A stretch of DNA of 64,000 bases from NCBI RefSeq assembly GCF_009469605.1, contig NZ_SSXU01000007.1, positions 62,001 to 126,000 of the forward strand, given 5' to 3'. Made by a program: the position numbers and the translations under genes. The notes beneath the pieces are model-generated. The model did not search any database. It worked only from the letters and a program-made list of their open reading frames with translations, and had not been told where the DNA came from. Below, in pieces: positions 19,062-25,028 of this stretch. Numbering within the stretch: position 1 is the stretch's first letter; each line of letters starts with the position of its first letter. This DNA comes from Zoogloea sp. 1C4. Lineage in GTDB: Bacteria; Pseudomonadota; Gammaproteobacteria; Burkholderiales; Rhodocyclaceae.

Positions 19062-19598
19062 TGTCGGACTGAAGTCCGACCTACAGGGTGTCGCGGGGGT
19101 GTGGGTTGGCGCCCTTCCGATCTGTAGGCCGGACTTCAGTCCGACACGCGGAGCGTGATCTGGGCGGTGCTGTTGGAATGGAGTTCGACGAGCAGGGATG
19201 GGACGGTTGGCATGGCGGGCGGCTTTGGCTGCACGTTTTCCTTTTGGGGCACCGGGCAGGTCTGCGTGTGTGTTCCGTGGCGATGGTGTCGGACTGAAGT
19301 CCGACCTACAGGGCATCGCGGGTGTGCGGGTTGGTGCCCTTCCGATCTGTAGGTCGGACTTCAGTCCGACACGCGGAGCGTGATCTGGGCCGTGCCGTTG
19401 GAATGGAGTTCGACGAGCAGGGATGGGGCGGTTAGCTTGGCGGGCGGCTTTGGCTGCCCGTTTTTCTTTTGGGGCGCCGGGCCGGTCTGCGTGGATGTTC
19501 CGTGGCGATGGTGTCGGACTGAAGTCCGACCTACAGGGTGTCGCGGGGGTGTGGTTGGTGCCCTTCCGATCTGTAGGTCGGACTTCAGTCCGACATTC
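19062..19598. repeat. 225-bp tandem repeat carrying paired REP palindromes (array A)
   Basis: Six copies of a 24-base GTAG-footed palindrome (arms GTCGGACT and AGTCCGAC around two bases) occur at 19062, 19123, 19287, 19348, 19512 and 19572, alternating in orientation. Equivalent copies are exactly 225 bases apart (19062, 19287, 19512). The array is thus about 2.4 copies of one 225-bp unit, including a spacer of about 140 bp that is itself repeated. It fills the gap between two convergent genes. The rest of 18945-19061 shows no gene or element I can name. The spacers are related to those of array B. Confidence 0.92.
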
Positions 19599-20340: not shown

Positions 20341-20814
20341 CTACGCGGCCGGAAGGCCGAAAACCGCTGAAAACCCGCGCCAGTAAAGGCTTTGCAGTAA
20401 TTTGCGGGTTTTGGGAGAGGCGTCCGGCAATGATTGCAGGACGACCTGGAATGATTGCAGGACGTCCTGCTGCTTTGGCCGGATGTCCTTGGGCTGCAGC
20501 CGGACGTCCATGAGTGATGGCCGGATGTCCGGCTGCGGCTGCCGGATGTGCTGCAAGGATGGCCGGATGTCCGTGAGCGCTTGCCGGACGTCCGGCAGCG
20601 CTGGCGGGATGTCCGTGGAGAATTGCCGGATGTCCGTGGATTGCTGCAGGACGTCCTGCAAAGGCTGCAGGATGTCCTGCAATGATTGCCGGGCGCGCGG
20701 CCAGCACGGCGGCACGTGCGGCGGTTTGGGCGGGAGCGGATGGGAACGCTGCGGCTTGTGGTGGAAGGTCTGAACCATCGTCTGCGTGCTTCGGCTGGCG
20801 TTGGCTGCGACCAT
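20341..20814 (-). CDS. possible heptad-repeat protein encoded by the 21-bp array
   Basis: This 157-residue frame reads the 21-bp array as heptads of the form xLxDIRx/xLQDVLQ (for example SLQDILQ, PLQDVLQ, QSTDIRQ, ALTDIRP), which could form an amphipathic helix or coil. It ends 41 bases before the start of the 226-residue gene on the same strand, so the two could be an operon. Because 21 is a multiple of three, other frames across the array are open too. The frame is favoured only by its hydrophobic spacing and by synteny. There is no clear ribosome binding site, and coding status is uncertain. Confidence 0.3.
   Translation of the reverse strand: MVAANASRSTQTMVQTFHHKPQRSHPLPPKPPHVPPCWPRARQSLQDILQPLQDVLQQSTDIRQFSTDIPPALPDVRQALTDIRPSLQHIRQPQPDIRPSLMDVRLQPKDIRPKQQDVLQSFQVVLQSLPDASPKTRKLLQSLYWRGFSAVFGLPAA
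20419..20698. repeat. 21-bp tandem repeat array with a GGAYGTCC core
   Basis: The core GGATGTCC/GGACGTCC recurs at exact 21-base steps. Starts are 20439, 20460, 20481, 20502, 20523, 20544, 20565, 20586, 20607, 20628, 20649 and 20670, with degenerate units at each end (about 20419 and 20691). Units differ between cores, with variants such as TTGCCGGA and TGCAGGAC, so the array is old or under selection for the core and the period. It occupies most of the gap between the 226-residue gene and the nuclease gene. The remainder, 20699-20958, holds no other element I recognise. Confidence 0.93.
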
Positions 20815-20958
20815 TGGTCGCTGTGCCGCAGCGTGCTCGAGCTGATCGACTCGCTATAAATTGGCGGCGATGATAAGTGGAAGTTGAAATGATGTATACG
20901 TAAACAGCATAGCTGAGATGATTTTTTCGTCTGCTCTTCCCGTTGATCCGTACAGCGG

Positions 20959-20966
20959 TATAGAAT
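20959..20966 (+). promoter_or_regulatory. -10-like TATAGAAT just before the MBL nuclease gene
   Basis: TATAGAAT ends 8 bases before the ATG at 20975. No convincing -35 hexamer is seen at the right distance. If it is used, transcription would start almost at the ATG and the message would be leaderless, which fits the lack of a Shine-Dalgarno sequence. Confidence 0.45.
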
Positions 20967-20974
20967 CCCCGGCC

Positions 20975-22399
20975 ATGCATGCGAACATCATTCATCACGG
21001 CGCCCTGCATGGGGTCACCGGCTCTTGTCATCAGCTCTTCATCGACGACACCCACAGCCTGCTGATCGACTGCGGGCTGTTCCAGGGGGCCGAGACTTCG
21101 CCCGATGGCGGTTCGGCCAGCGACAGGCTGGAGATTCCGTTTCCGGTGGATGCCGTGCGGGCGCTGGTGGTCACCCATGTGCACATCGATCACGTGGGGC
21201 GGATTCCGTGGCTGCTGGCGGCGGGGTTCAAGGGGCCGATCTATTGCAGCGAGCCTTCGGCGCGGCTGCTGCCGGTGGTGCTGGCCGATGCCTTTGCGGT
21301 GGGGGTGACGCGGGACGCCCGGCTGGTGGAGCGTTACCTGCGGATGGTGGAGGCGCGCATCCGCCCGGTGCCCTGGAATACATGGCAGACGGTTTTCGAG
21401 GGGCCGGATGGCAGTTGTGGCATTCGCCTGCAGCGGGCCGGGCACATTCTCGGGTCGGCCTATGTGGAGTGCGATCTCGTGCGCCCCGGGGCGCGGCGGA
21501 CCCGGGTGGTGTTCTCGGGGGATCTGGGGGCGCCCCACGCACCGATGCTGCCGGCGCCGCGCTCGCCATTGACGGCGGATGTGGTGGTGCTGGAGAGCAC
21601 CTATGGCGATCGCCTCCATGAAGACCGCAAGGCCCGCCGGGAGCGCCTCCAGCGAGTGGTCGAGAAGGCGCTGGATAACGGCGGCACGGTGATCGTGCCG
21701 GCCTTCAGCATCGGCCGCACGCAAGAGCTGTTGTATGAATTCGAGGACATCCTCTACCGCGAACAGCGCCAGCCCGGGCCCCATGCCGGGCGCTGGGCAA
21801 AGCTGCCGATCTATCTGGATTCACCCCTCGCCGGGCGTTTCACCCGGCTCTACCGTGAGCTGCAACCCTACTGGAACGACGAGGCCCTGGCCCGGGTGCG
21901 GGCTGGGCGCAAGCCGCTGGCCTTCGACCAGCTGGTGGCCATCGACGAGCATGCCGACCACGAAGCCAACGTGCGCAGGCTTGCCCGCAGCGGCGAGCCC
22001 GCCATCGTGATCGCCGCCAGCGGCATGTGCGCCGGTGGGCGGGTGATGGGTTATCTCAAGGCCATGCTCCACGATGCGCGTCACGACGTGCTGTTCGTGG
22101 GCTACCAGGCCCGCGGCACGCCAGGCCACGCGATCCAGACCTGGGGGCCGAAGGGCGGTTATGTGGATATCGACGGCGAGCGCATCGACATCCGCGCCGG
22201 CATCCATTCCGTCTCCGGCTATTCCGCCCACGCGGATCAGGCCGGGCTGGTGCGCTTCGTCACCGGCATGCGCCACTGGCCGAAGGAGGTCCGCCTGATC
22301 CACGGCGACGACGAGGCCCGTGCTGCCCTGCGCCACGCCATCGAATCCGCCACCGCGGGGCAGGTGAAGGTGTCGAACGGCGGAGAAGAAGCCCTGTAG
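20975..22399 (+). CDS. metallo-beta-lactamase/beta-CASP-fold RNA-processing nuclease
   Basis: The 474-residue protein has GEVTGSCH-like ALHGVTGSCHQLF near residue 9. It has the zinc ligand motif HVHIDH near 67-72, LESTYGDR near 206-213, a beta-CASP domain with PAFSIGRTQELLYE, and a C-terminal GYSAHADQ. This is the layout of bacterial exonucleases related to the CPSF73/YSH1 group. The final motif is present, so the active site looks complete. The substrate is presumably RNA. ATG 20975 gives the family N-terminus, and an upstream ATG at 20918 adds 19 unrelated residues. The TAG stop (22397-22399) lies inside the first REP copy of array B. Confidence 0.88.
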   Translation: MHANIIHHGALHGVTGSCHQLFIDDTHSLLIDCGLFQGAETSPDGGSASDRLEIPFPVDAVRALVVTHVHIDHVGRIPWLLAAGFKGPIYCSEPSARLLPVVLADAFAVGVTRDARLVERYLRMVEARIRPVPWNTWQTVFEGPDGSCGIRLQRAGHILGSAYVECDLVRPGARRTRVVFSGDLGAPHAPMLPAPRSPLTADVVVLESTYGDRLHEDRKARRERLQRVVEKALDNGGTVIVPAFSIGRTQELLYEFEDILYREQRQPGPHAGRWAKLPIYLDSPLAGRFTRLYRELQPYWNDEALARVRAGRKPLAFDQLVAIDEHADHEANVRRLARSGEPAIVIAASGMCAGGRVMGYLKAMLHDARHDVLFVGYQARGTPGHAIQTWGPKGGYVDIDGERIDIRAGIHSVSGYSAHADQAGLVRFVTGMRHWPKEVRLIHGDDEARAALRHAIESATAGQVKVSNGGEEAL

Positions 22400-22747
22400 G
22401 TCGGACTTCAGTCCGACACCAGGTGCTTGATTGGGCCGTGCTGTCGGACTGAAGTCCGACCTACAGGGGTTTTGCGGGTGTGCGGGTTGAAGGCCCACCG
22501 ATCTGTAGGTCGGACTTTAGTCCGACACCGGGTGCTTGATTTGGGCCGTGCTGTCGGACTGAAGTCCGACCTACAGGGGTTTCGCGGGTATGTGGGTTGA
22601 AGCCCCACCGATCTGTAGGTCGGACTTTAGTCCGACACCGGGTGCTTGATTTGGGCCGTGCTGTCGGACTGAAGTCCGACCTACAGGGGTTTTGCGGGTA
22701 TGCGGGTTGAAGCCTCACCGATCTGTAGGTCGGACTTTAGTCCGACA
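22395..22747. repeat. REP/BIME array B, left part (seven copies)
   Basis: 24-base GTAG-footed palindromes start at 22395, 22442, 22504, 22552, 22614, 22662 and 22724, alternating in orientation. Linkers alternate between about 38 bases (GTAG feet facing) and about 24 bases (hairpin heads facing), giving a 109-110-bp period. The centre is TTC in the first tgtagg-type copy and TTT in the others, so the two orientations form distinct subtypes, as in other BIMEs. Stem arms are GTCGGACT and AGTCCGAC. The array runs from the nuclease stop codon to the RAYT gene. Confidence 0.95.
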
Positions 22748-22801
22748 GAACACACCAGCAGGCCGTATTGAATCGCAGGACGGGCAATCTCAACCGGGCG
22801 T

Positions 22802-23248
22802 ATGTCTTATTCCGATCTTCGCAAGGGCCGGGTTTCGGTGGTGGGGCAGGTCTATCTGCTGACGACCGTCACCCATGACCGCCGCCCGTGGTTTGGGGAT
22901 TTCCGGGCCGGGTGTGCGGTGGCGAGGGTGATTCACGATCTGGCTTTGGGGTATCCGGGCCTGTCGCTGGCGTGGGTGGTGATGCCGGATCACGTGCACT
23001 GGCTGGTGCAGCTCCCGGAAGGGCTGACTCTGGGCTCATTGATGCGGCGCCTCAAGGGGCGCAGCGCGCTGGCGCTCAATGACGGCACGGGCGGGGGCAG
23101 GGTGTGGGCGCCGGCCTACCACGACCGCGCCCTGCGGCGGGAGGACGATGTACGCGCCGCCGCCCGTTACCTCGTCGCCAACCCCGTCCGCGCGGGGATT
23201 GTCGATCGGGTGGGGGATTATCCGTTGTGGGATGCGGTCTGGCTGTGA
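22802..23248 (+). CDS. REP-associated tyrosine transposase (RAYT, TnpA-REP)
   Basis: The 148-residue Y1/HUH protein has a VVMPDHVHWLVQ motif, with HxH at His64 and His66 for the metal. The candidate nucleophile is Tyr123, in ARYLVANPVRAGIV. Length and motif order match the RAYT clade of IS200/IS605-like transposases, which bind and cleave REP hairpins next to a GTAG/GGAG tetranucleotide. The gene is flanked on both sides by such hairpins. It occupies the position of one of the 24-base spacers, whose right part (GGGTGCTTGATTTGGGCC) survives at about 23271-23288. Promoter and RBS are weak. Confidence 0.95.
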   Translation: MSYSDLRKGRVSVVGQVYLLTTVTHDRRPWFGDFRAGCAVARVIHDLALGYPGLSLAWVVMPDHVHWLVQLPEGLTLGSLMRRLKGRSALALNDGTGGGRVWAPAYHDRALRREDDVRAAARYLVANPVRAGIVDRVGDYPLWDAVWL

Positions 23249-23292
23249 GGGGGCGTTTGGGTCTGGTACGGGGTGCTTGATTTGGGCCGTGC

Positions 23293-23816
23293 TGTCGGAC
23301 TGAAGTCCGACCTACAGGGGCGTCGCGGGTATGTGGGTTGCAGCCTCACCGATCTGTAGGTCGGACTTTAGTCCGACACCGGGTGCTTGATTTGGGCCGC
23401 GCTGTCGGACTGAAGTCCGACCTACAGGGGCTTCGCGGGTGTGTGGGTTGCAGCCCCACCGATCTGTAGGTCGGACTTTAGTCCGACACCGGGTGTGTGA
23501 TTTGGGCCGCGCTGTCGGACTGAAGTCCGACCTACAGGGGTTTCGCGGGTGTGTGGGTTGAAGCCTCACCGATCTGTAGGTCGGACTTTAGTCCGACACC
23601 GGGAGCTTGATTGGGCCGTGCTGTCGGACTGAAGTCCGACCTACAGGGGTTTCGCGGGTGTGTGGGTTGAAGCCTCACCGATCTGTAGGTCGGACTTTAG
23701 TCCGACACCGGGTGCTTGATTGGGCCGTGCTGTCGGACTGAAGTCCGACCTACAGGGGTTTCGCGGGTTTGTGGGTTGCAGCCCCACCGATCTGTAGGTC
23801 GGACTTTAGTCCGACA
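23293..23816. repeat. REP/BIME array B, right part (ten copies)
   Basis: Copies start at 23293, 23355, 23403, 23465, 23513, 23575, 23622, 23684, 23731 and 23793, alternating in orientation with the same 38/24-base linkers as the left part. All tgtagg-type copies here have the TTT centre. The last copy ends 9 bases before the stop of the minus-strand gene at 23826. Nothing else is seen in 23249-23825 apart from the spacer remnant next to the RAYT gene. Confidence 0.95.
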
Positions 23817-23825
23817 TGAACTGGC

Positions 23826-25028
23826 TTAGCGGCGCTTGCCGACCACGTCGTCCACTTCGGTGAGGAGCGGCGACGGGGTGGTGAGGAGGGTGTCGAGCTG
23901 CTTGCGGTCGGCGGCGATCACGTTTTCGATGTTGTCCGGGGTGAGCTGGATGCCGAACCTGCCATCGGCGTCGGGTGCGCCCATCACCCGGGCGATCACC
24001 TTGTCGCCCAGGGCGCGCTTGAAGTGGCCGGCTTCCCAGAAATACTGGAGGTGGGTCTTGCGGTCGCCCGGGGCGGGGATGGCTTCGAGGGTTTCGGGGC
24101 CGATGCCGCTGAAATCCCATACCTCGACGCCCGGATGGCGGGCGGCGATGGCGACGACCATGCGCTTCCAGTCGTTGAAGAGATCGGCGAGGCCGAGCCT
24201 GGCCTGCATCAGGCGGATTTCGGCGTGGTAGGGGTAGATCACCAGCCGGGCCTTGCCGCCGCTCGTCTGGATGCCGGCGAGGAGGGCGTCGAGGGCCTGC
24301 TGGTCGATGGATTGCCCCTCGGCGGGCTGGATGGCCTTGGCCTTGCGGCCCCAGTTGCGGGCGTTCTCGTCGGCGCGCTGGCGGAACAGGATGTAGTGGC
24401 CGCTGTTGTCCACCTCGGCGATGTAGTTGTCCAGCGGGTTGAAGCCGCGCTCGGTGAGGGTGGCGGCGTAGCGGGCGCGCTGCAGGGCGGCCGTCTTGGC
24501 GGAATCCCGCAGGCCGGTGATGGAGAACACGGTTTCGGCCAGCACCTTGCCGTCGATCTGCGGTGGGGTGTCGAGGGGCGGCAGCGGGGCGGCCTTGGTG
24601 GAGCCGAGGAAGTCGTAGAACTCGACGCCGATGAGGGCGACCTTGGGCGTGCAGCCGGCGGCCTGCAGCCAGCCAAACTGGCGCTGCGCCATGCTCACCG
24701 CCGAGCCGGGGATGGAATGGTTGAAGGCCGACAGGCCCTGGGCGGCAAAGGCCGGGTGCTCGGGATCGAAGCCGATCTCGGCGCGGGAATTGCCGAAGAT
24801 GCCGGCGCTGGGGCACAGCCGGCGGGCGGCCTGCCAGCGGGTGAGCTCCCGGTGGTGGTCGAGATAGGGCTTGGTGGCGCTGAGGCCGGCGATCCGCGGC
24901 GACCCGAAGATGCCCAGCGGGTCGATGAAGACATTGATGGCGCCCACCAGCGCGACGCAGGCGACGAGGGTTGCCAGCATCCAGCGCAGGTAGCTGGCCC
25001 AGGAGAAGGGAGTCGTCGGGGAAGCCAT
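23826..25028 (-). CDS. membrane-anchored SGNH/AlgX-like protein paired with an MBOAT
   Basis: The 400-residue protein has one N-terminal membrane segment (about residues 10-33) and a periplasmic domain. GNSRAEIGFDP lies near residue 76 in the position of the SGNH nucleophile block, and FWEAGHFK lies near 336, where the family usually has the catalytic Asp-x-x-His. The AlgX/AlgJ-type partner receives acetyl groups from an MBOAT protein and transfers them to polysaccharide. Its ATG overlaps the MBOAT stop by one base (TGATG), supporting a working pair. The Asp of the dyad is not obvious, so catalysis should be regarded as unproven. Confidence 0.7.
   Translation of the reverse strand: MASPTTPFSWASYLRWMLATLVACVALVGAINVFIDPLGIFGSPRIAGLSATKPYLDHHRELTRWQAARRLCPSAGIFGNSRAEIGFDPEHPAFAAQGLSAFNHSIPGSAVSMAQRQFGWLQAAGCTPKVALIGVEFYDFLGSTKAAPLPPLDTPPQIDGKVLAETVFSITGLRDSAKTAALQRARYAATLTERGFNPLDNYIAEVDNSGHYILFRQRADENARNWGRKAKAIQPAEGQSIDQQALDALLAGIQTSGGKARLVIYPYHAEIRLMQARLGLADLFNDWKRMVVAIAARHPGVEVWDFSGIGPETLEAIPAPGDRKTHLQYFWEAGHFKRALGDKVIARVMGAPDADGRFGIQLTPDNIENVIAADRKQLDTLLTTPSPLLTEVDDVVGKRR

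Follow-up and report, generated by a model that had tools for sequence, protein, structure and literature searches.

A RAYT gene within a tandem REPIN array of Zoogloea sp. 1C4, and a spacer core in REPINs of different classes across the genus

In a stretch of 64,000 nucleotides from Zoogloea sp. 1C4 (contig NZ_SSXU01000007.1, positions 62,001 to 126,000; the window, whose numbering is used unless a contig or locus is named), a gene for a Y1 HUH transposase lies amid 17 copies of a short palindrome. What kind of element is this, and how did the gene come to stand inside the array? In all likelihood the locus is a REPtron, that is, a RAYT (REP-associated tyrosine transposase) with its cognate REPs (repetitive extragenic palindromes), here with a tandem cluster of REPINs (inverted REP pairs) around the gene, whose units would have multiplied by duplication. 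This reading is founded on the identity of the RAYT, the numerous REPs, their pairing into REPINs, the single RAYT of the source genome (G000 below) and the way in which REP class tracks RAYT lineage across the genus.

The RAYT gene and its palindromes

The gene product passes the curated RAYT model NF047646 (REP_Tyr_transpos; 137.6 bits against a cut-off of 80) and matches both PF01797 (1.7e-8) and the TnpArep structure 4er8 of the Protein Data Bank (6.1e-10). H64, H66 and Y123 are invariant in an alignment of 14 RAYTs, and Tyr123 is the predicted catalytic residue, judging by the alignment to 4er8 and by what is known of the family. G000 carries one copy of the gene, at 100% identity, and its only other Y1 match, a second transposase-like gene (L032; C64:183653-184072), is 29% identical. 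An IS200/IS605 insertion sequence was ruled out by this single copy, by a score below cut-off for the IS200 model NF033573 (27.3 bits against 55) and by the partly conserved neighbourhood. The RAYT is apparently a domesticated Y1 HUH transposase, single-copy and vertically kept much as a housekeeping gene would be, and it is group-3-like, with short perfect palindromes and no C-terminal tail. Among plasmids, 17 records held distant RAYTs, none of them at least 60% identical.

The palindrome, GTCGGACTTYAGTCCGAC (18 nt), occurs 17 times without a mismatch between 22400 and 23815, each time with a GTAG foot; the array as a whole extends from 22396 to 23815, and its palindromes read GTCGGACTTTAGTCCGAC or GTCGGACTTCAGTCCGAC. 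They alternate in orientation around the gene, just as a sequence-only reading of this DNA had described them, and the feet are on the outer side of every inverted pair. The spacer and linker lengths given there, 24 and 38 bases, are equivalent to ours, two more bases being counted per palindrome. Each unit consists of a forward REP (REP>, 22 nt), a spacer (25-26 nt), a reverse REP (<REP, 22 nt) and a linker (40 nt), with a period of 109-110 (Table 1). There are eight units, seven complete and the fourth holding the RAYT, and a lone REP> closes the array. When the fourth is counted without the RAYT, the eight mutually differ at 3-12 aligned positions; adjacent complete units are 0.92-0.97 identical, a range that sets aside comparisons with the RAYT unit (0.51) and the array end (0.55). 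Folded as DNA, a single arm forms a hairpin of 7 bp and the whole unit-2 REPIN one long hairpin (fold z -8.8 and -9.0 for the two strands). Inverted pairs with outward feet, near-constant spacing and a hairpin are the marks of REPINs, and all are present here. A chance origin of the palindromes was rejected, with 23 matches in the window against 0 in 100 shuffles. Neither a sigma-70 promoter nor an Rfam match was found at the RAYT locus.

A REPtron is recognised by a gene flanked by GTAG- or GTGG-footed palindromes with many further copies in the genome, and this is what G000 presents. With at most 2 mismatches to the 22-mer REP, the 5.02 Mb contain 192 matches (97 plus, 95 minus; reversed control 0), of which 23 lie in the window and 169 elsewhere, in keeping with the expectation of further copies; exact REPINs number 56. 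The G000 sequence fetched comprised 43 loci including the window (290,549 bases), where REPs were counted with at most 3 mismatches. Among its 175 REPs, 138 form 69 inverted pairs (REPINs), with a spacer of 24-27 nt in 53 pairs, and 37 are unpaired. REPs avoid genes, since only 56 of the 175 midpoints fall inside greedy open reading frames (ORFs), though these cover 84.6% of the bases.

The intergenic bias is also consistent with REPs being kept for a host function, at mRNA 3' ends, in termination, or in gyrase or nucleoid binding, with the RAYT as a decaying passenger. In line with this, the array occupies the entire gap between two convergent ORFs, the beta-CASP gene (20918-22399, plus strand) and a minus-strand ORF ending at 23826, and the locus has four terminator-like sites on the plus strand against 1.5 in shuffles. 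The RAYT, however, has intact catalytic residues and an open frame, and REP class tracks RAYT lineage in the genus; we consider this explanation improbable.

By a 400-bp rule the REPs form 12 singlets, 44 doublets and 16 larger clusters, the biggest of which are the RAYT array's two halves, with 7 and 10 REPs. Duplication of a REPIN with its flank recurs in the genome, because other clusters contain at least one pair of neighbours that are at least 0.70 identical, at periods of 128, 154, 167-168, 189, 195 and 225; clusters below 0.70 may be chance neighbours. The linker of the RAYT array turns up once more on contig C53, where a decayed arm and a spacer-like stretch lie next to it, and appears in diverged form in a second array at 19 kb, indicating that a unit larger than the REPIN was copied elsewhere. 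The REP centre reads CTTCA in 148 of the 175 copies and CTTTA in 21, of which 15 are in plus-strand REPs. The two centres had been taken for REP subtypes; as 19 of the 21 TTT copies lie within clusters of three or more, eight of them in the RAYT array, TTT looks instead like one mutation carried by unit duplication that marks the history of the duplications.

REP classes and RAYT lineages of the genus

To place the locus we draw on a comparison set of 23 congeneric genomes. REPs of the window's kind (class 1) are present in eight of them, with more than 10 copies only in G190 (398), G000 (192) and G214 (23), precisely the genomes that carry class-1 RAYTs. These RAYTs form one clade (support 99/97), the RAYTs of G190 and G214 being 66% identical to that of the window, and in G190 the foot is GTGG at 87 of the 100 places listed. 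A second kind of REP (class 2; GGGCGACT/GGGCGAAT, 1 mismatch) occurs in 22 of the 23 genomes and reaches at least 100 copies in G207 (740), G205 (197), G200 (191), G164 (187), G211 (133) and G214 (104). Four of the six yielded a RAYT, which in G205 is a partial match only.

The gene order beta-CASP-RAYT-(..)-ParA is found in the window and in G200, beta-CASP-RAYT in G207, and RAYT-(..)-ParA in G190 and G214. In the RAYT tree the in-genus lineages do not form one clade; class-2 RAYTs group together with a support of only 83/92, and G207 takes no settled place. Descent at one locus with a switch of class appears likely from gene order and phylogeny, and replacement by another RAYT would also be compatible with the tree. 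RAYTs of the genus outside class 1 accompany other REPs, which is the known 'orthoswitch' pattern, in which syntenic RAYTs with different REPs make up orthogroups and the mechanism is only speculated upon (PMC3686654). There, likewise, REP abundance tracks RAYT presence, with exceptions.

G011, of the same family (L126/L050), has an independent RAYT within an array of 17 palindromes, with a period of about 140-151 and two arms that differ, GCCGGCTTCAGCCGGC versus TGCGGCTGAAGCCGCA.

The place of the gene in the array

A REP> arm stands to the left of the RAYT, and a complete 26-nt spacer followed by a <REP arm stands to its right. It had been proposed that the gene took the place of one spacer and left a right-hand remnant of it; nothing was in fact replaced, and because the whole spacer persists beside the gene (23268-23293), the RAYT sits at a junction of REP and spacer. 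A left arm before the gene, a complete spacer and right arm after it and the same linker on both sides could mean that the RAYT element is a newcomer, inserted in one REPIN of an existing tandem array between left arm and spacer. A T insertion in the spacer, common to units 2-6 around the gene and missing in units 1, 7 and 8, would fit such an event. Against it stand the parts of the RAYT neighbourhood common to G200, G207, G190 and G214, and the loci of G190 and G214, where a lone REP> already precedes the gene and a complete REPIN follows it; we regard insertion into a finished array as unlikely.

The same arrangement raises the thought that REPINs are internally deleted RAYT elements, comparable to miniature inverted-repeat transposable elements, in that REP>-RAYT-spacer-<REP minus the gene is exactly one REPIN. 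The junction is precise at the REP/spacer border and preserves the full spacer, as this would require. But the array spacer resembles a single variant within a spacer family spread over the genome, and at the sister and class-2 loci measured the gene is flanked by REPINs or single arms and is not enclosed in one REPIN, which makes this origin most improbable.

What do these other loci look like? In G190 and G214, the sister RAYT lineage, a lone REP> precedes the ATG by 47 and 62 nt and a complete REPIN follows the gene, in G190 overlapping the end of the RAYT frame. At class-2 RAYT loci (G200 and two copies in G214), a full REPIN lies 17-20 nt before the gene and 19-22 nt after it. Nine RAYT loci were found in the genus, and in all seven measured the nearest REP ends 17-113 nt 5' of the ATG. 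The simplest ancestral layout would be REPIN-RAYT-REPIN, and since the sister and class-2 loci point to it, the half-units of the window are probably the remnants of two damaged REPINs. The RAYT lead compared with array units gave P 0.03 (two strands, several targets). As candidate remnants, linkers (P 0.79) and units (P 0.83) were rejected for the RAYT tail, and the right arm (P 0.95) for the lead.

Because parts of its neighbourhood recur in G200, G207, G190 and G214, the RAYT seems to be older at the locus than the array, which looks younger, and the gene can no longer be held a recent arrival. The description of the locus as a live factory agrees with the intact gene and the nearly invariant arms, both indirect signs, and sits badly with the gene's apparent age at the locus. 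Nor did the RAYT loci measured in relatives show the same array with a degenerate RAYT: they hold other REP arrangements.

By analogy with RAYTs that have been characterised biochemically, this one would bind single-stranded REP (GTAG foot plus hairpin) and cut at a CT or CA dinucleotide near the REP through linkage to Tyr123; cleavage would lead to REPINs (REP>-spacer-<REP) being copied or moved to other intergenic places. In a separate, second process, a REPIN with its 40-nt flank would be duplicated head to tail, up to eight units, via slippage or unequal recombination possibly aided by nicking at the feet. An ancestral REPIN-RAYT-REPIN would lose its inner arms before units were amplified on both sides of the RAYT. 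What the sequences display is the gene, its hairpins, a dispersed REP population, tandem units and the co-segregation of REPs with RAYT lineage; the activity of the enzyme, the mobility of the elements and the cause of duplication are inferred.

Several points weigh against the REPtron reading and the history given to it. G164 and G211 are rich in class-2 REPs and yet yielded no RAYT at E<=1e-15, and REPs can therefore persist without a detected RAYT. The partial RAYT match of G205 lies upstream rather than downstream of the beta-CASP gene. No beta-CASP gene was found beside the RAYT in G190 or G214, and no ParA within the 14 kb of G207 sequence fetched, and the neighbourhood is thus common only in parts. 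The linker copies on C53 and at 19 kb speak for duplication beyond a local process alone. Taking the RAYT tail as a decayed REP arm is a weak proposition (empirical P 0.019 by global and 0.87 by local alignment). Finally, no activity, excision or new insertion was seen.

In E. coli the arrays to compare are those of bacterial interspersed mosaic elements (BIMEs), such as BIME-2; the REP type and RAYT group of the present locus differ from those of E. coli. BIME arrays as defined in PMC8266576 are likewise head-to-tail REP pairs with linkers between. The group 3 TnpA-REP REPtrons of Stenotrophomonas and Marinomonas (PMC8266576) also combine a single-copy Y1 HUH gene with GTAG-footed short perfect palindromes in many genomic copies, which in Marinomonas are concentrated near the gene; here the REP sequence is another, an eight-unit tandem array surrounds the gene, and the enzyme is known from sequence. 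Pseudomonas fluorescens SBW25 (PMC3116915) shares inverted REP pairs with fixed spacing and tandem REPIN-plus-flank repeats. A REPIN cluster adjoins each of its three RAYTs, whereas the present RAYT lies inside its cluster of 17 REPs; the largest ordered REPIN cluster of SBW25 has four REPINs and one REP, and its largest tandem REP arrays 12 REPs (PMC3116915). RAYT and REP architecture of this kind is described in PMC8266576, PMC3116915 and PMC3686654, and the locus is an ordinary, well-formed REPtron with a long array around the gene, of a kind already known.

Table 1. Coordinates of the RAYT, its REPs and a second array in the window
Feature	Coordinates	Strand	Remarks
Second BIME array	19063..19594	.	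6 REPs, period ~225, similar linker
REPIN unit 1	22396..22464	.	TTC centre in both arms; 25-nt spacer; GTAG foot includes beta-CASP stop codon
REPIN unit 2	22505..22574	.	left arm TTT, right arm TTC; 26-nt spacer
REPIN unit 3	22615..22684	.	
Lone REP> arm	22725..22746	+	55 nt before RAYT start codon
RAYT (TnpA-REP) gene	22802..23248	+	148 aa, open frame intact; HUH motif H64-V-H66, Tyr123
RAYT tail	23249..23267	+	stop codon to spacer; possibly a decayed REP arm overlapping the stop codon
Spacer and <REP arm	23268..23315	.	complete 26-nt spacer (23268-23293), 25/26 identical to array spacer; arm 23294-23315
REPIN unit 5	23356..23425	.	
REPIN unit 6	23466..23535	.	
REPIN unit 7	23576..23644	.	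25-nt spacer
REPIN unit 8	23685..23753	.	25-nt spacer
Terminal lone REP>	23794..23815	+	array end

In the second array of the window, which is apparently older, a related spacer precedes what reads by eye as a decayed arm. The beta-CASP gene encodes a metallo-hydrolase, and its stop codon lies within the GTAG foot of the first REP. For 11 of the 13 full-length orthologues from the genus, the alignment stops at residue 488-490 of 493, and the first REP may have rewritten the last codons. Just 5' of this gene is a minisatellite (20429-20692; periods 21/42/63 nt) of GGATGTCC/GGACGTCC-like units. Elsewhere in G000 we noted by eye an intergenic repeat with GTTTCAGCGCCTGAAAC- or GAAACG-like units beside REPs (L085 ~2030-2240 on C48; L092 on C53) and an intergenic stretch full of short GCAAGGC/GCCTTGC-rich repeats (L093 ~1800-2340 on C54).

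The REPIN spacer across REP classes

REPIN spacers of different REP classes in the genus are, judged by their sequences, very likely related by descent, with a GTTGATCAAC-like core. By eye, the plan of the spacer is about 7 nt, the core and 6-8 nt. The motif TTGATCA was first noticed in spacers of two REP classes, then counted, and then followed by a motif-free test. Spacer sets were drawn by rule (first member per tandem cluster, 18-28 nt), giving 46 spacers from the 69 REPINs in the loci of G000, 15 from 50 in G200 (34 of those left out have spacers outside 18-28 nt), 7 from 16 in G207, 10 from 19 in G190 and, in G214, 3 from 3 for class 1 and 4 from 5 for class 2; the 28 of G164 were found by pattern. 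With at most 2 mismatches, the core TTGATCAA was present in 17/46 spacers of G000, 15/15 of G200, 13/28 of G164, 2/7 of G207 and 4/4 of G214 class 2, and in 0/10 of G190 and 0/3 of G214 class 1; shuffles gave 0.05-1.7 across sets. The counts for G000 and G200 are not independent of the choice of core, since it was first seen there; the G164 spacers and some of those of G200 come from sequence fetched after it had been noticed.

For the motif-free test, a weight matrix was trained only on the 22 G000 spacers of 25 nt and then applied to the other sets. The z-scores were 9.2 for G200, 7.1 for G164, 4.0 for G207, 4.4 for G214 class 2, 3.6 for G190 and -0.9 for G214 class 1; without the four end columns they became 11.5, 7.8, 3.6, 5.7, 0.9 and -1.4, respectively. 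The spacers of G000 are thus tied more clearly to those of class 2 than to those of its sisters in RAYT lineage, G190 and G214 class 1. With the core weak or lacking in the sister lineage, a simple history in which the spacer follows the RAYT is disfavoured, and the inner part of the hairpins may be older than their ends. Some REPINs have spacers of 41-43 nt (L156, L164-L167, L169), and in L164, L166 and L167 two GATC-centred cores are apparent, as if the 25-nt spacer were doubled.

Is the core a general feature of REPINs? Outside the genus, REPINs were detected at 27 of 102 RAYT loci, and the core was present in 3 of 61 spacers against 3.0 expected. The matrix of the first run, applied to the 28 of these spacers that are 18-30 nt long, gave z -0.1, and with the end columns removed z 2.0 (P 0.03). 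Beyond the genus the core is not clear as a general feature, with room for a slight general tendency.

One tentative reading, which we hold to be possible rather than probable, is that REPINs are modular, an old spacer being kept through exchanges of arms (TCGGACT, GGGCGACT, GGGCGAAT) and foot (GTAG, GTGG) that accompanied the divergence of the RAYT. Orthologous sites bear on this. Comparison of 43 G000 loci with 42 loci of G200, G164 and G207 gave 13 pairs with a common ORF at least 60% identical, four of which were inspected; because both sets were chosen for having REPs, we claim no enrichment of same-site pairs. At five intergenic places (L085/L292, L093/L286 twice, L099/L299 and L091/L283), each of the two species has a REP or REPIN. 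At these five, spacers and flanks were unalignable beyond isolated short matches (by eye except for L085/L292), and no locus-specific spacer identity of the kind that arm exchange in place would leave was found.

The spacer core across REP classes is possibly new. In the mostly open-access literature, as far as the available text of PMC8266576, PMC3116915, PMC3686654, PMC3733652, PMC8049555 and PMC6006769 goes, spacers common to several REP classes are not reported, and in PMC8049555 the spacer of REPINs is described as 'short and highly diverse'. Compared with the orthoswitch study (PMC3686654), in whose main text the words 'spacer', 'linker' and 'loop' are absent, REPIN spacers are here compared across classes and found to have a common core.

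The comparison across the genus, above all the relation among spacers, is the most interesting part of these results. The genus offers a natural series of RAYT lineages, several of which share a partly conserved neighbourhood, that go with hairpins of different classes and with two foot motifs. Two questions thereby become testable: by which residues a RAYT recognises foot and arm, and how a population of REPs passes from one class to another. If spacers do descend from a common source, REPIN lineages could be traced through a class switch. If REPINs are modular, a class switch would re-arm an existing REPIN population without new elements, which would give the unexplained orthoswitch a concrete route.

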